Part shown: positions 6,411-14,361 of the stretch, piece after piece
How the letters are laid out: each line of letters opens with the position of its first letter
Position numbering within the stretch: position 1 is the stretch's first letter
Source of the DNA: a virus
Length of the DNA stretch: 21,010 bases
Direction: 5' to 3' (one strand)
Virus record (IMG/VR): IMGVR_UViG_3300032088_000113
Span: 1 to 21,010 of that record
The notes under the pieces: model-generated
The model's input: the letters and a program-made list of their open reading frames with translations, nothing else
Database searches by the model: none
What the model was told of the DNA's origin: nothing
Program-made: the position numbers and the translations under genes

Positions 6411-6857
6411 TTACGCTACGTTAATTAATTCTGCTTCGGTATAAGGTATGTGATAGAATAATTCACCCTTCAAGATGTTACGTCCACGTGCCTCACGCAA
6501 TCGTTCATCTCTCAGGCTTGTATCCTTGATACGCCACACTTGTTTCATATCTTTACGGAAGATATAGAAGTTAAGTACCCCCTTCTCCCCCTCATATTTT
6601 GAAAGTAATCTACCCTTACGTTCTGGTATACGTATGTCCTTCCAATCGGTAGGCCACTCCTCTTTCCATGCCAGCTTAACCTCTGCCTCATTGAAATATG
6701 TATAGTCATCTTTCTCTGACACAATATCTACATAGAAGTTCTCTTGTGTTTCTTTGATCTCGTGACCTGCACCTACTAGATACTCCACTAGTTTATCTTT
6801 CGCAGGGGCATCGTAGGCTTCGTACAATGCACGGCTAAATTGTTTACGTGTCGCCAT
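6411..6857 (-). CDS. Conserved phage protein, possible PD-(D/E)XK nuclease, 148 aa
   Basis: The start has AAGGAG 8 bases upstream and lies inside the end of the glutaredoxin gene (14-nt overlap). A candidate nuclease core is seen as D44 (FYVDIVSEKDD) followed 15 residues later by E59-V-K61 (NEAEVKLAW), the spacing and strand pattern of PD-(D/E)XK enzymes. A predicted strand (KGVLNFYIFRKDMKQVWRI) follows. The context of nucleotide and DNA metabolism genes is consistent, but the leading motif is weak and the helix arrangement was not checked. It could instead be an unrelated conserved phage protein. Confidence 0.6.
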   Translation of the reverse strand: MATRKQFSRALYEAYDAPAKDKLVEYLVGAGHEIKETQENFYVDIVSEKDDYTYFNEAEVKLAWKEEWPTDWKDIRIPERKGRLLSKYEGEKGVLNFYIFRKDMKQVWRIKDTSLRDERLREARGRNILKGELFYHIPYTEAELINVA

Positions 6858-7077
6858 TTAAATACTCCTTCAATTCTGTATACCCACCTATGTGCTTTCC
6901 CTCACTGTCAAACACTTGGGGTACAGTTGTTATACTTGATCTCTTCAACAAAGACAATACCCATTTACTACTTTTACTTTGGATATTATATTCTACGTAA
7001 GGTATGCTGGCCTCTTTTAATAATGCCTTGGCAGTATCACAGAAGTTGCATTGGTCTCTACTAATTAATGTCCACAT
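6844..7077 (-). CDS. Glutaredoxin, 77 aa
   Basis: A compact thioredoxin-fold protein: active-site C10-N-F-C13, the cis-proline loop T51-V-P53 and the G64-G65 turn before the last helix (HIGGYTELKEYL) are all present. Length matches short glutaredoxins of the NrdH/GrxC kind. GGAGG lies 4 bases upstream of the ATG. It sits two genes downstream of ribonucleotide reductase, so the likely job is to re-reduce the C-terminal cysteines of that enzyme, either with glutathione or with host thioredoxin reductase. The gene starts inside the end of the DUF1289 gene (17-nt overlap) and itself overlaps the next gene by 14 nt. Confidence 0.9.
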   Translation of the reverse strand: MWTLISRDQCNFCDTAKALLKEASIPYVEYNIQSKSSKWVLSLLKRSSITTVPQVFDSEGKHIGGYTELKEYLNGDT

Positions 7078-7252
7078 CTTTCCTCCCTAATAGTTCAAGT
7101 AATAGTTGCTGTTGTTCATACTCTGACATTACCATCCAGTCACGTATTTCGTCAATGGTTCTTCTGCACCCTGCGCAATACCCATCTTTTATGTGACAGA
7201 TATTTACGCAGGGTGAAGGTGCAGACCCTACACTAGGTCTACGATTTCGCAA
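7061..7252 (-). CDS. DUF1289 family cysteine-rich small protein, 63 aa
   Basis: The family signature is clear: SPCVNICHI, then GYCAGCRRTIDEIRDW, then SEYEQQQLL. Four cysteines (C15, C19, C26, C29) form a likely metal site. The family is common in Proteobacteria and their phages and has no known function. No ATG exists upstream of the conserved region; the best start is TTG at 7252, which lies 25 nt inside the ribonucleotide reductase gene with only a weak GGTGA site, so reinitiation after NrdJ is likely. The frame differs from that of NrdJ, so the overlap is a true dual-coding stretch. Confidence 0.85.
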   Translation of the reverse strand: MRNRRPSVGSAPSPCVNICHIKDGYCAGCRRTIDEIRDWMVMSEYEQQQLLLELLGRKDVDIN

Positions 7253-9123
7253 GAGTCACCAGAGCAAGCCATAGTCTGCATACTTACCGTGTTGTCCTCA
7301 CTTTCATAGTTAGACAGGGCCGACCAGTCAATACTACTAGGCATCAGCGATAACAGTTCTTTATATACACTCTTGCCTACCTCTTGGTAAGGAGCCTGTT
7401 GATAGGTGTGATCTGAGTGTGGTAAGAATGACACACCTGACATCTCATCAAAGTGTTCATACACAAACGCACCCACAGACATCCACTCAGCATCACGAAC
7501 TGAGATAGTCACACTTGGCTTATGTTCACACCAGTGTCGCTGGTAGGTCAGCCACAACTCTAGCTGCTCTACTGCTGTCATATCGTTACGTGTCACTGCC
7601 TGCTCAGGTGACTTGACAGGGAAACTAAACACTACAGTAGAGTCAGGCTTCATAACGCAAGGCTCATTAGGGATACCTTGATCAATCATAAAATGTGTCA
7701 GAGGGTCTTTATTATCGCCCCGCACAGTACGAATATAATAGGGGCTGTGACGAGCGTGAATACCAGAGGCACTGTCAACCAACTGTGATACTGTTCCCGA
7801 AGGTTTATTGCAGCTGATAGCAGCAGAGACAGGGATGCCAAGGCGTTCAGCCCACTCAGCGTTAGTAGTAACAGCGATATAACGTAAATGCTCAAGTGTT
7901 CTATCCAATCCTTTGTTAGCGTTTGTCATTAATGGATTATCCATAATGCCAGTCATAGATACGCCAAGAAGTCTTTCTTCTGCCGTATTGTTTTGCCATA
8001 CCTTTCGTAGGTAGGGGAACTTGATAAGGGTAGACTGTATAGTACCCAAGATCGTAGCAAGTTTTACCTTGCGTTCAAGGTCTTTCAATGTATCCGTTGC
8101 TCGTACAACACATTCCGTTAAGTTACAAAATTGATACGGACGTAAAATGATTTCAGAACAAGGGTTTGTACCGAACTCATAGTTAGGATCACGTCTACCA
8201 AACTTGGCTGCTTGCTTCTTGGATGCCTCACGATTAAAGATACCACGCTCACCAGACTTAGACTCAACGAGAGAGAGCCACTCACGCATGAATGTTTCCA
8301 TGTCTGGCTTCTCAGTGTACGACACGCTGTTGTTAGCCAAGGCACGATGCCCTGCTGTCTCCCACCACTGTCCTGACTTAGCGTGACGCATACGGTCATC
8401 ACTCAGGTTAGACAGAGAGATCATAGCTGAACGCCTCACTCCACCTACGACCACGATCTGACCAATGAAGCACATCAAGTCGTGACACTCCATAGATGAT
8501 AGCCTGCGTCCTTGTGCCGCCTTGAAAGTAGCTACGGAAAAGTTAAATAATTCTACGAGAGGTGCTGGGCCTGATGCCCTACCACCAAACGTTTTAAGCC
8601 TTGCACCTGCAGGGCGTACCTGTGACACATCCCACTTAGGGATTTCACCAGCCCATAGGAGTGCAAGAACTTGACGGAACCCCTTAGCCCAGCCTTCCTT
8701 ACTGTCCTTAACGACAACGATAGACTCACTCTCGTACAACTCAGGCACTTCTGGGAGCTTGCTGATGAACTGGCGCTCGACACTGAACCCGACACCAGTA
8801 CCACAGAGCAAGATGTACATAGCTTCGTCAAATGACTTAGGGTCATCGACAGGTAGGTAACTACAGTTGTAGCCTGCCGTGTTGTCACGATCTAATGCAG
8901 GGCCAGCTGTCATCATAGCTCTCATAGAGGGCATGATCTCTAGCCCCAATATAGCTTGCTCTAGTTCTTGTTTAGTTTTGGAATCTACTAGATCACCGAT
9001 TACATTTGTGCTGTAACGTTCGACTGTATCACCCCATGATTCACGCCCCATACTGTCAAAGTACTTTGCGTACCGTGACTTATGAATGAACGCTTGATAG
9101 TCTGTAGGTAAATAATTGTTCAT
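7228..9123 (-). CDS. nrdJ: Class II (adenosylcobalamin-dependent) ribonucleotide reductase, 631 aa
   Basis: Reduces ribonucleotides to deoxyribonucleotides using a radical made from coenzyme B12, so no oxygen or second subunit is needed. It resembles the monomeric Lactobacillus type. Numbered from a GTG six bases upstream: N-C89-S-Y-L-P and C335 (QFCNLTEC) form the redox pair, TNPC324SE326II holds the radical cysteine and its glutamate, and C622-SGDS-C627 near the end is the shuttle pair. I start at the ATG at 9123 because GGGAG lies 5 bases upstream; the GTG at 9129 overlaps that site. The first bases overlap the end of the 52-aa gene. Glutaredoxin two genes downstream can recharge it. The host must make or take up B12 for it to work. 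Confidence 0.95.
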   Translation of the reverse strand: MNNYLPTDYQAFIHKSRYAKYFDSMGRESWGDTVERYSTNVIGDLVDSKTKQELEQAILGLEIMPSMRAMMTAGPALDRDNTAGYNCSYLPVDDPKSFDEAMYILLCGTGVGFSVERQFISKLPEVPELYESESIVVVKDSKEGWAKGFRQVLALLWAGEIPKWDVSQVRPAGARLKTFGGRASGPAPLVELFNFSVATFKAAQGRRLSSMECHDLMCFIGQIVVVGGVRRSAMISLSNLSDDRMRHAKSGQWWETAGHRALANNSVSYTEKPDMETFMREWLSLVESKSGERGIFNREASKKQAAKFGRRDPNYEFGTNPCSEIILRPYQFCNLTECVVRATDTLKDLERKVKLATILGTIQSTLIKFPYLRKVWQNNTAEERLLGVSMTGIMDNPLMTNANKGLDRTLEHLRYIAVTTNAEWAERLGIPVSAAISCNKPSGTVSQLVDSASGIHARHSPYYIRTVRGDNKDPLTHFMIDQGIPNEPCVMKPDSTVVFSFPVKSPEQAVTRNDMTAVEQLELWLTYQRHWCEHKPSVTISVRDAEWMSVGAFVYEHFDEMSGVSFLPHSDHTYQQAPYQEVGKSVYKELLSLMPSSIDWSALSNYESEDNTVSMQTMACSGDSCEIVDLV

Positions 9124-9125
9124 GT

Positions 9126-9284
9126 TCACTCCCTTATTATTTTAATTGCTTTAATTGACATTCCATCAATGTCATAGATAAATTCCTCAAGGCATTGAGC
9201 AACTTCTTCATCAAGTACATTGTCTACTGGAACAGGATATTCTTCTTGATCTATATCTAAGGTTAGAAATACTTTAACTATCAT
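9126..9284 (-). CDS. Small acidic phage protein, 52 aa
   Basis: This short gene fills the apparent gap between DUF3310 and ribonucleotide reductase. It starts with ATG at 9284 behind GAGGA (5-base spacing) and begins 11 nt inside the end of DUF3310. It stops with TGA at 9126-9128, where the last codons (AGG GAG) supply the ribosome site of nrdJ. The product (MIVKVFLTLDID, YPVPVDNVLDEEV, FIYDIDGMSIKAIKII) has an alternating strand-helix-strand make-up and is acidic. I do not know a function; similar small proteins next to DNA metabolism genes are common in marine phages. Tight coupling to nrdJ and complete start and stop signals support it being real. Confidence 0.75.
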   Translation of the reverse strand: MIVKVFLTLDIDQEEYPVPVDNVLDEEVAQCLEEFIYDIDGMSIKAIKIIRE

Positions 9285-10531: not shown

Positions 10532-11383
10532 TTACTCCTCTATATATGCCACCGTCTTGGGGGCTTTTGCTTTCGACATACGTGCTGGTTCCTCTACCAT
10601 AGTGGGCCAACAAGTGTGCCTATAGTCACAGAACCTACAGCCATCATTTAGTACTGTATTTCCTGTAGGCTTACCCCGAAAGAACTCGGGTACTGGACTG
10701 AAACAACGTTTAAACTCATTGTCATTTACAGTCTCTACTGTTGTCTTGATTTTATCAAGCTCTTCTTGCATGTCTAGGTTGTCGGCAGGTACATACTTGA
10801 ACTCACCAGTACCTTTATTAACTACCCACCAGCCACCTGCTTTGTATCCAGATGCCTTGGCATACCCTGCAAGCTGTCCAACATAACCGAAGCTATCTCC
10901 TTTAGCAAGTGTGTCAAAGGTATCAAACTTGTTTACATAAGACCAAGGCGATGCTGACTTCACATCATCAACAGCACCGTCTATTACAAGATCATAACTA
11001 CCAGAAATCCTAGTATCATTATCATCTTCCACTGAAAGGCTAACTTTATCAGTGTCTTTATAGTCCACGCCAGCACCCCGAAGAAGACCTTTAAAAACAG
11101 CTTCAACTATATCTCCTATCATCATGTTCATTACAAAGGTTGTCGGCTTAGGTAGTGCTTTCTCTGGCATGTTCTTAGCAAACCAGAGTTGGCAAGTAGG
11201 ACGCCCAATGTTGGACATCCTTAGTGTGAACTTGTCACGAGACTTACCACTACCAAACTGACGGAGAACTGCATCAGTAACTTCCGCACCAATTTCTTTA
11301 GCAACCTCAGCGTCAAAGGTTGTCTTTCCATTGGCAGCGTCAGTCATAAACTGATGCAGCTTTAACTCAGCTGGATGATGCAT
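10532..11383 (-). CDS. Cas4/RecB-like Fe-S exonuclease (PD-(D/E)XK), 283 aa
   Basis: The nuclease core is visible as G90-D-I-V-E94, D131 (SGSYDLVIDG), D140-D-V-K142 and the Q170-L-A-G-Y174 motif that marks RecB/Cas4-type enzymes. One cysteine far upstream (C64 in RPTCQLWF) and three near the end (C249-x2-C252-x5-C258) form the four-cysteine set that binds an iron-sulfur cluster in AddB and Cas4. Such phage enzymes are thought to trim DNA ends for recombination or degrade host DNA. The start overlaps the upstream gene's stop by one base (TAATG), so it is probably co-translated with the putative binding protein, a pairing that fits a recombination or replication role. Confidence 0.87.
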   Translation of the reverse strand: MHHPAELKLHQFMTDAANGKTTFDAEVAKEIGAEVTDAVLRQFGSGKSRDKFTLRMSNIGRPTCQLWFAKNMPEKALPKPTTFVMNMMIGDIVEAVFKGLLRGAGVDYKDTDKVSLSVEDDNDTRISGSYDLVIDGAVDDVKSASPWSYVNKFDTFDTLAKGDSFGYVGQLAGYAKASGYKAGGWWVVNKGTGEFKYVPADNLDMQEELDKIKTTVETVNDNEFKRCFSPVPEFFRGKPTGNTVLNDGCRFCDYRHTCWPTMVEEPARMSKAKAPKTVAYIEE

Positions 11384-12273
11384 TAGACAAAATCCTCTGC
11401 ATCAATGTCTACAAATGCTTCAACAGTATCCGTATCTGTATCGTCATTCTTGTAAGCATTGTCATCCCAAGAACCCTTGATGTATTCATTGTAGTTCTGA
11501 ATCCATGCAAGGAAGTTTGCGAATGTCTCTTGCTCTGGATCAGTGACATCAAGTGTCTCGTTTAGATCAAGTGCCAGAGTAGGCAAGTAGAACGAACTAC
11601 CGTTAGGCAATTTCTGTTCTTCTGTTGCTGCCTTGATGTTGTGCTGCACTGGCAATCTCCGCATCTTACCTAGCTTGGTGAACAGAGTACCCGCAGTTTT
11701 AAATGCGTCACGGTTTTCAATCTCCCAGATAAATGATTGTTCGTCTAGGTCCACGGGATTACCTTGTGCATCTGTAACGTCATGCAGCTGTACTGTACCA
11801 AACATAACCCGAACACGTTTGATCTGACGTATCAGGTCTTGTGTCTTCTCAGGCAATGCCTTGAAGTCTTCAATCCACCCCGCTGGTTTACCACAGTTGA
11901 AGCCACCGTCATTGTCTTTAAGGTCACTGTTCAAATCGTTAGCCATCAATGTCTTGACGAAACGATTGGGTGAATTATCATTGCCCTTGATGAAACGCTT
12001 GTACATAAACCGCTGTACGAAGGGACGTATAGTTGCAGTAGATGCATAGTAGGTTGGCCCATCTGGGATTTCCAACTTGTATGTGCCGCCTGCCACGACT
12101 TCCATCTTTACCTTCTTGCCATTGATTGTATCCTCACCCATGATAGCTGAGTGATTGATACGTAAACGTGCAAGAGTACTCGACTGTGACTTCTGTTTGT
12201 TGTCAACAGACATACCCATTGCCTCTGCCATTGCAGAAAAATTACCTGTGTTAATTGTTGCGATCTGATTCAT
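11383..12273 (-). CDS. Putative single-stranded DNA binding protein, 296 aa
   Basis: AAGGAG lies 7 bases before the ATG. Residues about 35-110 form a likely beta-rich core with conserved basic and aromatic positions (LARLRINHSAIMG, GTYKLEIPDGPTYY, IRPFVQRFMYKRF). The last 30 residues are strongly acidic and end in an aromatic (NDDTDTDTVEAF...DAEDFV), the same plan as the C-terminal tails of T7 gp2.5 and bacterial SSB, which bind other replication proteins. It is the first gene after a strong promoter-like site and lies between the polymerase and an exonuclease. The call rests on tail and context, not on a recognised domain; another replication accessory protein is possible. Confidence 0.5.
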   Translation of the reverse strand: MNQIATINTGNFSAMAEAMGMSVDNKQKSQSSTLARLRINHSAIMGEDTINGKKVKMEVVAGGTYKLEIPDGPTYYASTATIRPFVQRFMYKRFIKGNDNSPNRFVKTLMANDLNSDLKDNDGGFNCGKPAGWIEDFKALPEKTQDLIRQIKRVRVMFGTVQLHDVTDAQGNPVDLDEQSFIWEIENRDAFKTAGTLFTKLGKMRRLPVQHNIKAATEEQKLPNGSSFYLPTLALDLNETLDVTDPEQETFANFLAWIQNYNEYIKGSWDDNAYKNDDTDTDTVEAFVDIDAEDFV

Positions 12274-12332: not shown

Positions 12333-14361
12333 GCCAATTAGGACCAATCTTTGCCTCTAATAATAGAGGTACGTTGAAGTCCAGTTTCCATTTCTTATTT
12401 ACAATAGTAAGAAGCCTGTCATTGGCTGCATGTATGGTCTGTAGTACTTTGTCCTTTTCATTTGGATGCACATCAATCACGATAGAATCGTGTACAGTAT
12501 TGACGATACATGATTGCATTTTATTTGCCCCTAATAACTTATCAATGTATATCAGAGATATGGGTACAATGTCAGCCGTAGCAAACGATTGCACGGGAAA
12601 GTTTTTAATCTGTGTGAAATATGACACAGTACCATTGGCACGGCGAGTCACATCAGGGAAAGAAAACTCACGACCAGATGGTGTCTTGATCTTACCTGTG
12701 GCTAGAGCCTCACGTGCAAGCTCCTTGTGCCACTTACCAATACCTGAGTACTTCTTAGTGAACTGCTCATAGTATGCAGCCTCTGCTGGTGTACGCCCAA
12801 ACCCACTAGCCCCATACAAGGGCGCAAATGTGTGTGCCTTGGCATCCTGACGTGATATGCTTTGCCCTGCATCAGATATAACCTTTGCGGTATAACTGTG
12901 TACATCAAAGCCAGTAGTCACCTCGTCAATGGCAGTCTTGTCCTGAGATAGAAACGCAGCAACTCTAAATTCTAACTGAGCAAAGTCTGCTTCCATAATC
13001 TCCCCGCCATCCCAACGTGACTTGAACACACGCTTCACTGGAAACGTACCTCCACGTGGCATGTTCTGCATGTTGGGGTCTGCACCTGACAGGCGACCAG
13101 TAGCAGTACGGTGTTGAAGTAACCTGACGTGCAGCTTACCATCTTGTTTTACATGTGTTGTGATACCTTCCACAAAGCTTGATAGATATGTATCAACGGC
13201 AGACAAACGGCGAACTCGTTGTAAGAACAACACTGCGTCCTGCATATTACGTTGTCTAGCGATACCTTCAAGGTATTCAAGTTTATCTTTACTTGTTGCG
13301 AAACCGTTAGCTGAGGCCCATTTTGCTGTAGGTGCATTGAACTTTAACCCAGCCACATGCGAATTAATATTATTAAAAGTGTAACCCGTACTATCACAGC
13401 TAGTACATCTGTTAGTTCTGGTATATGGTGTTCCATCTTTTCTTACCTTTCTAATTTGTCCAGTGCCATTACACTTATGACACCGCTTTGCTTTCTGCTT
13501 ATACAACTTCTCTGTATTCTGCCGTACAGTGCTACGGTAATCAGTGTCGGACATACGGAAGTCGTCAAACAAATCTGCCCACACCTTTTTGTCTTGTGGT
13601 TTCTTACTATAGATGACCCAAGACAATTGTTCTGGGCTGTTCAAGTTGATAGGACGATCCCCCATTAGGTCACGTACCTGTAGTTCTAGTTCACGTACTA
13701 GTTCGTCACGTTCCTGTTGGAACTCTGTACGCACAGCCTCAAGTGCGTCCATGTCTACACTAAAGCCACGCTGGTATATCTTGGCAAGGTGTACAGCCAA
13801 CTGATTAGTCAGTGTGATTGTTCCTGCCAGTGTACTGCATTCCTCGTATGATTTCTGCAAACAAAGGTACAGTTGCTGCGTAGCATGTAAGTCATGGGAC
13901 AGGTACTCCGATAACTCTGCATGTGGAATGTCACGCACAGAGTAACCTTGCTTGAAGTATTCCTTCAGTGTGTCCTGTTTCTGCGTGTCAAGATTGTACC
14001 GTTCAGCACAAGCCTCAAGGGACAGGGGTTCCTTCTGCCCACGTTGCAGCACATACTCACCCAGCATTGTGTCAAATATAGTACCTTCATAGGTGAAGCC
14101 AGACTCCCATAGCCACATAAGATCGTGCGCTGCGTTGTGCATAATTAGAAGGGCGGTTTCATCCAAGTTCTTCTGGACAATGTACCGCCCCTCTTCAGTA
14201 GGTTGATGCTCTGAGTGATCAAATGTTACACAATATTCGTTTCCAAGATCATCTAACATACCTACCATAACCAATGTATTCTCTGCTTCAAACGGATCAA
14301 GATGCATCTTGCCGTTGCGTTTCACCACAGTGTTTTCTACGTCTAGGGTAAGGTGTTTCAT
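12310..14361 (-). CDS. polA: Family A DNA polymerase with DnaJ-like zinc finger, 683 aa
   Basis: Replicative polymerase. Exonuclease residues: D7 and E9 (LDVENT), D80 (HNAAHD), Y153-x3-D157. Polymerase motifs: RTATGRL (418-424) before PNMQNMP, motif A D459 (ADFAQLEFRV), motif B R504-x3-K508-x3-F512-x3-Y516-G, motif C V623-H-D625. Between the two domains (about 290-330) lies an insert with C294-x2-C297-x-G-x-G and C319-x2-C322, the repeat of the DnaJ zinc finger. This is the published hallmark of HMO-2011-type phages. The insert is at about the place of the thioredoxin-binding loop of T7 polymerase. F512 is at the position of E. coli Phe762, unlike Tyr in T7. AAGGAG lies 11 bases upstream; the ATG directly follows the stop of the preceding gene. 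Confidence 0.96.
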   Translation of the reverse strand: MKHLTLDVENTVVKRNGKMHLDPFEAENTLVMVGMLDDLGNEYCVTFDHSEHQPTEEGRYIVQKNLDETALLIMHNAAHDLMWLWESGFTYEGTIFDTMLGEYVLQRGQKEPLSLEACAERYNLDTQKQDTLKEYFKQGYSVRDIPHAELSEYLSHDLHATQQLYLCLQKSYEECSTLAGTITLTNQLAVHLAKIYQRGFSVDMDALEAVRTEFQQERDELVRELELQVRDLMGDRPINLNSPEQLSWVIYSKKPQDKKVWADLFDDFRMSDTDYRSTVRQNTEKLYKQKAKRCHKCNGTGQIRKVRKDGTPYTRTNRCTSCDSTGYTFNNINSHVAGLKFNAPTAKWASANGFATSKDKLEYLEGIARQRNMQDAVLFLQRVRRLSAVDTYLSSFVEGITTHVKQDGKLHVRLLQHRTATGRLSGADPNMQNMPRGGTFPVKRVFKSRWDGGEIMEADFAQLEFRVAAFLSQDKTAIDEVTTGFDVHSYTAKVISDAGQSISRQDAKAHTFAPLYGASGFGRTPAEAAYYEQFTKKYSGIGKWHKELAREALATGKIKTPSGREFSFPDVTRRANGTVSYFTQIKNFPVQSFATADIVPISLIYIDKLLGANKMQSCIVNTVHDSIVIDVHPNEKDKVLQTIHAANDRLLTIVNKKWKLDFNVPLLLEAKIGPNWLDTKDVS

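Follow-up and report, generated by a model that had tools for sequence, protein, structure and literature searches.

HMO-2011-type phages encode DNA polymerases with a "partial DnaJ central domain" that contains two CXXCXGXG motifs (PMC9038755, PMC6918029). In one ocean survey, up to 19.7% of the family A polymerases of the viral datasets came from such phages (PMC9038755). We found no published explanation of the processivity of these enzymes. The thumbs of other polymerases provide points of reference. The processivity of E. coli Pol I falls upon truncation of its thumb (PMC10061031). The thioredoxin-binding domain of T7 gp5 binds the tail of the SSB protein gp2.5 (PMC7699545), and basic residues of this loop touch DNA in simulations (PMC5984650). 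In the solved structure of phiVC8 DpoZ, the thumb contains a beta-turn (beta 8-9) with a large hinge motion that was measured at G276 (PMC8599892).

The window, that is, the whole 21,010-nucleotide stretch of DNA analysed here, is a fragment of an HMO-2011-type phage, a common marine type. Its polymerase is 89.8% identical to that of CRP-1 and 66.9% identical to that of HMO-2011, and between its Pfam matches to the exonuclease and the polymerase it carries two CXXCXGXG-type motifs, consistent with the definition of the HMO-2011 type. The insert is thus already known as a sequence feature, as the earlier note had recognized. The polymerase matches DNA_pol_A (E 2.4e-54) and the 3'-5' exonuclease family (E 3e-8). 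Active-site residues D80, Y153, D157, D459, R504, K508, F512, H624 and D625 are invariant, and exonuclease residue E9 is at least 90% conserved. The presence of both the palm/fingers motifs and the 3'-5' exonuclease residues identifies the protein as a family A polymerase with proofreading. F512 aligns with Phe762 of E. coli Pol I (E. coli numbering), and this residue is Phe throughout the family. HMO-type phage contigs (L308/L309 and L312/L313) were also encountered in bins named Flavobacteriales, Neomarinimicrobiota, Euryarchaeota and others. These placements look like binning artefacts because identically named and equally long contigs occur in two different bins.

Features of the window (positions in nucleotides of the window, residues of the polymerase)
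Feature	Position	Strand	Basis or remark
Family A DNA polymerase with 3'-5' exonuclease, 683 aa	12310..14361	(-)	Pfam matches and kept active-site residues
Thumb helix H, residues 204-233	13663..13752	(-)	AlphaFold2 DSSP; Klenow alignment
H-H1 turn GDRPINLNS, residues 234-242	13636..13662	(-)	T7 loop slot; no insert here
Thumb helix H1, residues 243-251	13609..13635	(-)	AlphaFold2 DSSP; corresponds to Klenow STKQLQTIL
Whole H1-H2 insert, residues 252-357	13291..13608	(-)	Two short helices, then beta-hairpin with predicted zinc head
First zinc knuckle (predicted) CHKCNGTG, residues 294-301	13459..13482	(-)	Sequence and conservation
Basic hairpin loop QIRKVRKDGTPYTRTNR, residues 302-318	13408..13458	(-)	Charge scan
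Second zinc knuckle (predicted) CTSCDSTG, residues 319-326	13384..13407	(-)	Sequence and conservation
Thumb helix H2, residues 358-370	13252..13290	(-)	AlphaFold2 DSSP; corresponds to Klenow SEEVLEELA
SSB candidate with acidic C-terminal tail, 296 aa, directly downstream of the polymerase	11383..12273	(-)	Possible partner
Glutaredoxin, 77 aa	6844..7077	(-)	Pfam E 6.2e-11

The zinc-finger motif that the earlier note had reported at 13380-13500 is real and its coordinates are right, but the second motif is CxxCxGxG-like and not the plain CxxC listed there. Homologues were collected from viral and genome contigs by peptide patterns that lie outside the finger for most queries, although a single pattern from the CRP-3 query falls inside it. 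In the published sets the motif was required, a circularity that this sampling largely escapes. The four cysteines, with their CxxC spacing, are kept in 293 of 293 distinct homologues that span the site, without a gap or a substitution. Because all four are retained in homologues that were gathered mostly with non-finger peptides, the cysteine motif is not a product of chance. Among the 67 sequences left after redundancy removal at 90%, the four cysteines and G299, G301 and G326 are invariant, and their neighbours vary freely. The dN/dS ratio of residues 287-336 is 0.14, compared with 0.08 for the palm/fingers and 0.11 for the exonuclease (75 independent close pairs), which points to purifying selection on a constrained, not a decaying, module. 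As judged from its sequence, the four-cysteine module probably binds zinc.

Two variations were observed within the family. In one sub-lineage (L056, L057, L058, L059, L062, L066, L068, L069, L071 and L072; also L038 and L040), a fifth cysteine directly follows the second pair, so that the sequence reads CVGCDGCG or a close variant and contains CxxCxxC. The stretch between the cysteine pairs is 12-13 residues longer in 28 of 208 relatives, including CRP-738 (L085 301-2451) and L242, and is still strongly basic.

From which part of the polymerase does the insert emerge? Direct profile alignment of HMO-type and T7-like polymerases is ambiguous across the thumb, and each group was therefore anchored on Klenow (E. 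coli Pol I). In multiple and profile alignments, HMO-type INLNSPEQLSWVIY aligns with Klenow FNLSSTKQLQTILF, which forms helix H1, and the insert comes next. In the profile alignment of T7, FNPSSRDHIQ corresponds to Klenow FNLSSTKQLQ, and T7 residues 258-333 precede this H1 motif. Because the T7 loop lies before and the HMO-type insert lies after the same H1 motif, helix H1 lies between the two inserts. Residues 233-242 of the window polymerase are the counterpart of the T7 slot, which is ten residues long in all 208 sequences compared, and the H1-H2 stretch (residues 252-353) ranges from 100 to 127 residues in the same set. The proposal that the finger sits at the site of the T7 thioredoxin-binding loop is therefore not upheld, and the agreement in residue numbers (245-335 here, 258-333 in T7) is a coincidence. 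Given the known architecture of the family A thumb, both the H-H1 and the H1-H2 loops are located at the thumb tip. Alignments and AlphaFold2 helix assignments bear out the expectation that the insert leaves the thumb tip and not the exonuclease domain. The placement between the exonuclease and polymerase domains, which the earlier note shared with the literature, is correct in terms of Pfam boundaries, but it is a boundary effect in that the DNA_pol_A match begins at residue 344, and the actual site lies inside the thumb between H1 and H2.

The AlphaFold2 model of the polymerase (62 sequences; mean pLDDT 91, pTM 0.83) has a fold that matches Pol I structures in a fold search. In the model, H1 is followed by two helices (residues 258-265 and 272-282) and then by a hairpin whose strands, 287-293 and 327-336, flank the cysteine head before the chain enters H2. 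The hairpin is modelled with a pLDDT of 84-94.

The H1-H2 slot is also occupied in the relatives of these enzymes. In a palm/fingers tree, the finger polymerases group with the zinc-less polymerases of ICP2, VP41s3, JSF7, PGT2, Fishpie and PollyC with a support of 99/99. QDWS535 and StenR_269 fall inside this group, and their placement within it is unsettled. Klenow, DpoZ and the T7-like enzymes, the last as a separate branch, are located on the opposite side of the tree. Among the polymerases tested, the nearest to the finger enzymes are thus zinc-less phage enzymes, and T7 polymerase is not a near relative. Clear inserts follow H1 in ICP2, VP41s3, JSF7, PGT2, PollyC, Fishpie and QDWS535, with StenR_269 as the exception, and the H1-H2 slot is therefore a place where this branch tolerates inserts. 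An insert-only profile and sequence comparison of the finger with the zinc-less inserts gave nothing significant (best E 0.013, in the flank only). A shared ancestry of the finger with the zinc-less inserts of this slot is retained as an idea only, since the motif resemblances noted by eye, KxGKxxGxP and G[LFY]xxP, had no significance. Two genes, divided just past the thumb, encode the polymerase in each of ICP2, VP41s3, QDWS535 and ctOsX528 (L086 2953-5046, L090 253-2583, L087 286-2201, L301 826-2950), and L297 3785-4981 is an N-terminal polymerase part of the same extent as in the split polymerases. Scans of viral contigs for relatives of the split polymerases yielded few or no loci.

What could such a hairpin do at the tip of a polymerase thumb? 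Averaged over the 67 relatives, residues 301-318 rank first among the 666 windows of 18 residues for positive charge, with a mean of +5.8 and a minimum of +4, whereas the mean for the whole protein is about 0. K305, K/R307, K308 and G310 are conserved in the loop. This family-wide charge maximum favours the view that the loop touches DNA or the acidic tail of a protein, and it is plausible that the thumb insert holds DNA or docks a partner.

Thus, we propose, with somewhat more confidence than doubt, that the finger is a zinc-pinned basic thumb arm that grips duplex DNA, docks an acidic-tailed partner, or both, and that it is independent of the T7 loop. The proposal is built on four observations, namely the slot, the conservation, the charge and the predicted hairpin. 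The H1-H2 loop at the thumb tip would have been elaborated into the beta-hairpin, and the far end of the hairpin would be pinned by a single zinc ion held by the two CxxC(xGxG) knuckles. The basic arm would lie on the duplex that leaves the active site and thereby raise DNA grip and processivity. Less surely, the basic loop may dock the acidic tail of a partner, such as the neighbouring SSB candidate, much as the T7 loop does with gp2.5. The basic loop is compatible with several kinds of partner.

The neighbouring gene is relevant to an alternative in which the finger serves chiefly to dock proteins without DNA contact, and its basic loop ties the polymerase to the replisome through the acidic tail of the SSB candidate, the primase or the helicase. 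In 175 genes downstream of the polymerase, the last 20 residues carry a net charge of -3 to -10. The model of the 296-residue protein is beta-rich (pLDDT 82.5) with a disordered C-terminal tail. The window member has no Pfam match, Pfam and PHROGs gave no informative match, and a sequence-profile search against solved structures gave none. In a PDB fold search, no match fell below E 0.001, and the SSB-like matches were weak. Predicted viral structures matched by this protein are mostly unnamed, with a few annotated SSBs among the weaker matches. To read this protein as an acidic-tailed SSB is reasonable but unproven. A purely protein-docking finger would agree with the conserved basic loop, with the acidic tail of the neighbour in 175 relatives and with the behaviour of the T7 loop toward gp2.5 (PMC7699545). 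However, docking is compatible with DNA contact, and the neighbour is an SSB candidate only; we consider this alternative unlikely.

The finger might instead be purely structural, the zinc serving to staple a long thumb-tip loop that makes no direct functional contact. The restriction of invariance to cysteines and glycines, with most other residues of the module varying, would suit such a staple, but the strong positive charge in each of the 67 relatives is more than a staple needs and makes this alternative improbable.

The resemblance to DnaJ raises the question of whether the finger was captured from a DnaJ-type chaperone and brings in host DnaK/DnaJ, as happens when lambda replicates, an analogy drawn in PMC9038755. 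Among solved structures, the module profile best matches repeats 2 and 3 of E. coli DnaJ (1exk, E 2.2e-4), which speaks for this possibility. Weaker matches include the yeast DnaJ homologue MAS5, anti-TRAP and the phage antiterminator Q (7ubj, E 0.19). In PHROGs, the Q-like families 127 and 6060 match 19 of 19 module sequences with best E-values of 4.3e-6 and 5.3e-7, and antiterminator Q families thus match too. The spacer between the two CxxCxGxG motifs is similar in zinc centre II of E. coli DnaJ (repeats 2 and 3) and in the zinc module of Q. However, the four repeats of DnaJ give two zinc centres, whereas the polymerase thumb has only two repeats and a predicted single centre. Furthermore, the gathering cut-off of PF00684 (32.7 bits) is reached neither by the whole protein (23.5) nor by the module alone (29.5, also 28.1), and the polymerase contains no match to the J-domain, through which type I DnaJ/Hsp40 contacts DnaK. 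The module therefore reads as one DnaJ/Q-like zinc centre and not as a DnaJ central domain, and its content gives no support to the DnaK/J link that had been suggested. A chaperone role would also leave the conserved and strongly basic loop unexplained, and it appears very improbable to us.

A phage glutaredoxin had been named as another possible partner of the finger. Glutaredoxin is encoded in 7 of 39 loci that are at least 10 kb long and have a complete finger polymerase, a count in which some loci miss the reductase region. It was not found in the stretches of HTVC033P or CRP-3 examined, which are parts of each genome. Given its absence from most finger loci, glutaredoxin is unlikely to be a general partner. 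In the fetched loci, all tblastn matches to glutaredoxin lie in loci that also encode ribonucleotide reductase, and in the window the glutaredoxin, a 63-residue cysteine-containing protein and ribonucleotide reductase adjoin one another (6844-9129). In a further alternative, the finger would take the place of the T7 loop in the H-H1 slot and recruit a processivity factor of thioredoxin fold, such as host thioredoxin or the glutaredoxin of the phage. This reading draws on the thumb-tip position and similar residue numbers of both inserts and on the glutaredoxin gene in the window, but it is hardly tenable given the different slot, the separate branch of the T7-like enzymes and the sparse distribution of glutaredoxin.

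Returning to the zinc-pinned basic thumb arm, a more specific version is possible, and we offer it tentatively, as doubtful in its full form. The hairpin may be a built-in clamp that does the job of thioredoxin without a host protein, docks the acidic tail of an unrecognised phage SSB and arose in a slot where related phage polymerases have zinc-less inserts. The partial DnaJ motif of HMO-2011-type polymerases was known as a sequence feature; the present analysis adds its location between H1 and H2, the peak of positive charge in its loop across the family and a candidate partner encoded by the adjacent gene. The thumb-loop placement clears away the misleading interpretation of the motif as a chaperone or thioredoxin element. 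With a definite thumb loop, a conserved charge and an adjacent candidate partner, the "DnaJ" label becomes a simple mutagenesis question.

The window polymerase can be compared with known systems. The polymerases of HMO-2011, CRP-1, CRP-2, CRP-3, HTVC033P and others are the same protein with the same motif and do not differ in kind, but the papers on them describe the motif as lying "between exonuclease and polymerase domains", whereas we place it in the thumb H1-H2 loop. The zinc-less inserts of ICP2, VP41s3, JSF7, PGT2, PollyC, Fishpie and QDWS535 share the slot of the finger but have no cysteine pairs. G276 of phiVC8 DpoZ aligns to the same H1-H2 slot; the beta-turn of this enzyme is mobile, but it is short, lacks zinc and belongs to a distant branch. 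The T7 gp5 thioredoxin-binding domain precedes H1, has no CxxC pairs and belongs to another polymerase branch, and yet it resembles the finger as a thumb-tip insert with a basic surface that may act as a DNA clamp and a dock for the SSB tail. Thus, the thumb arm is probably a functional analogue of the T7 loop that occupies a neighbouring slot and is not its positional equivalent.
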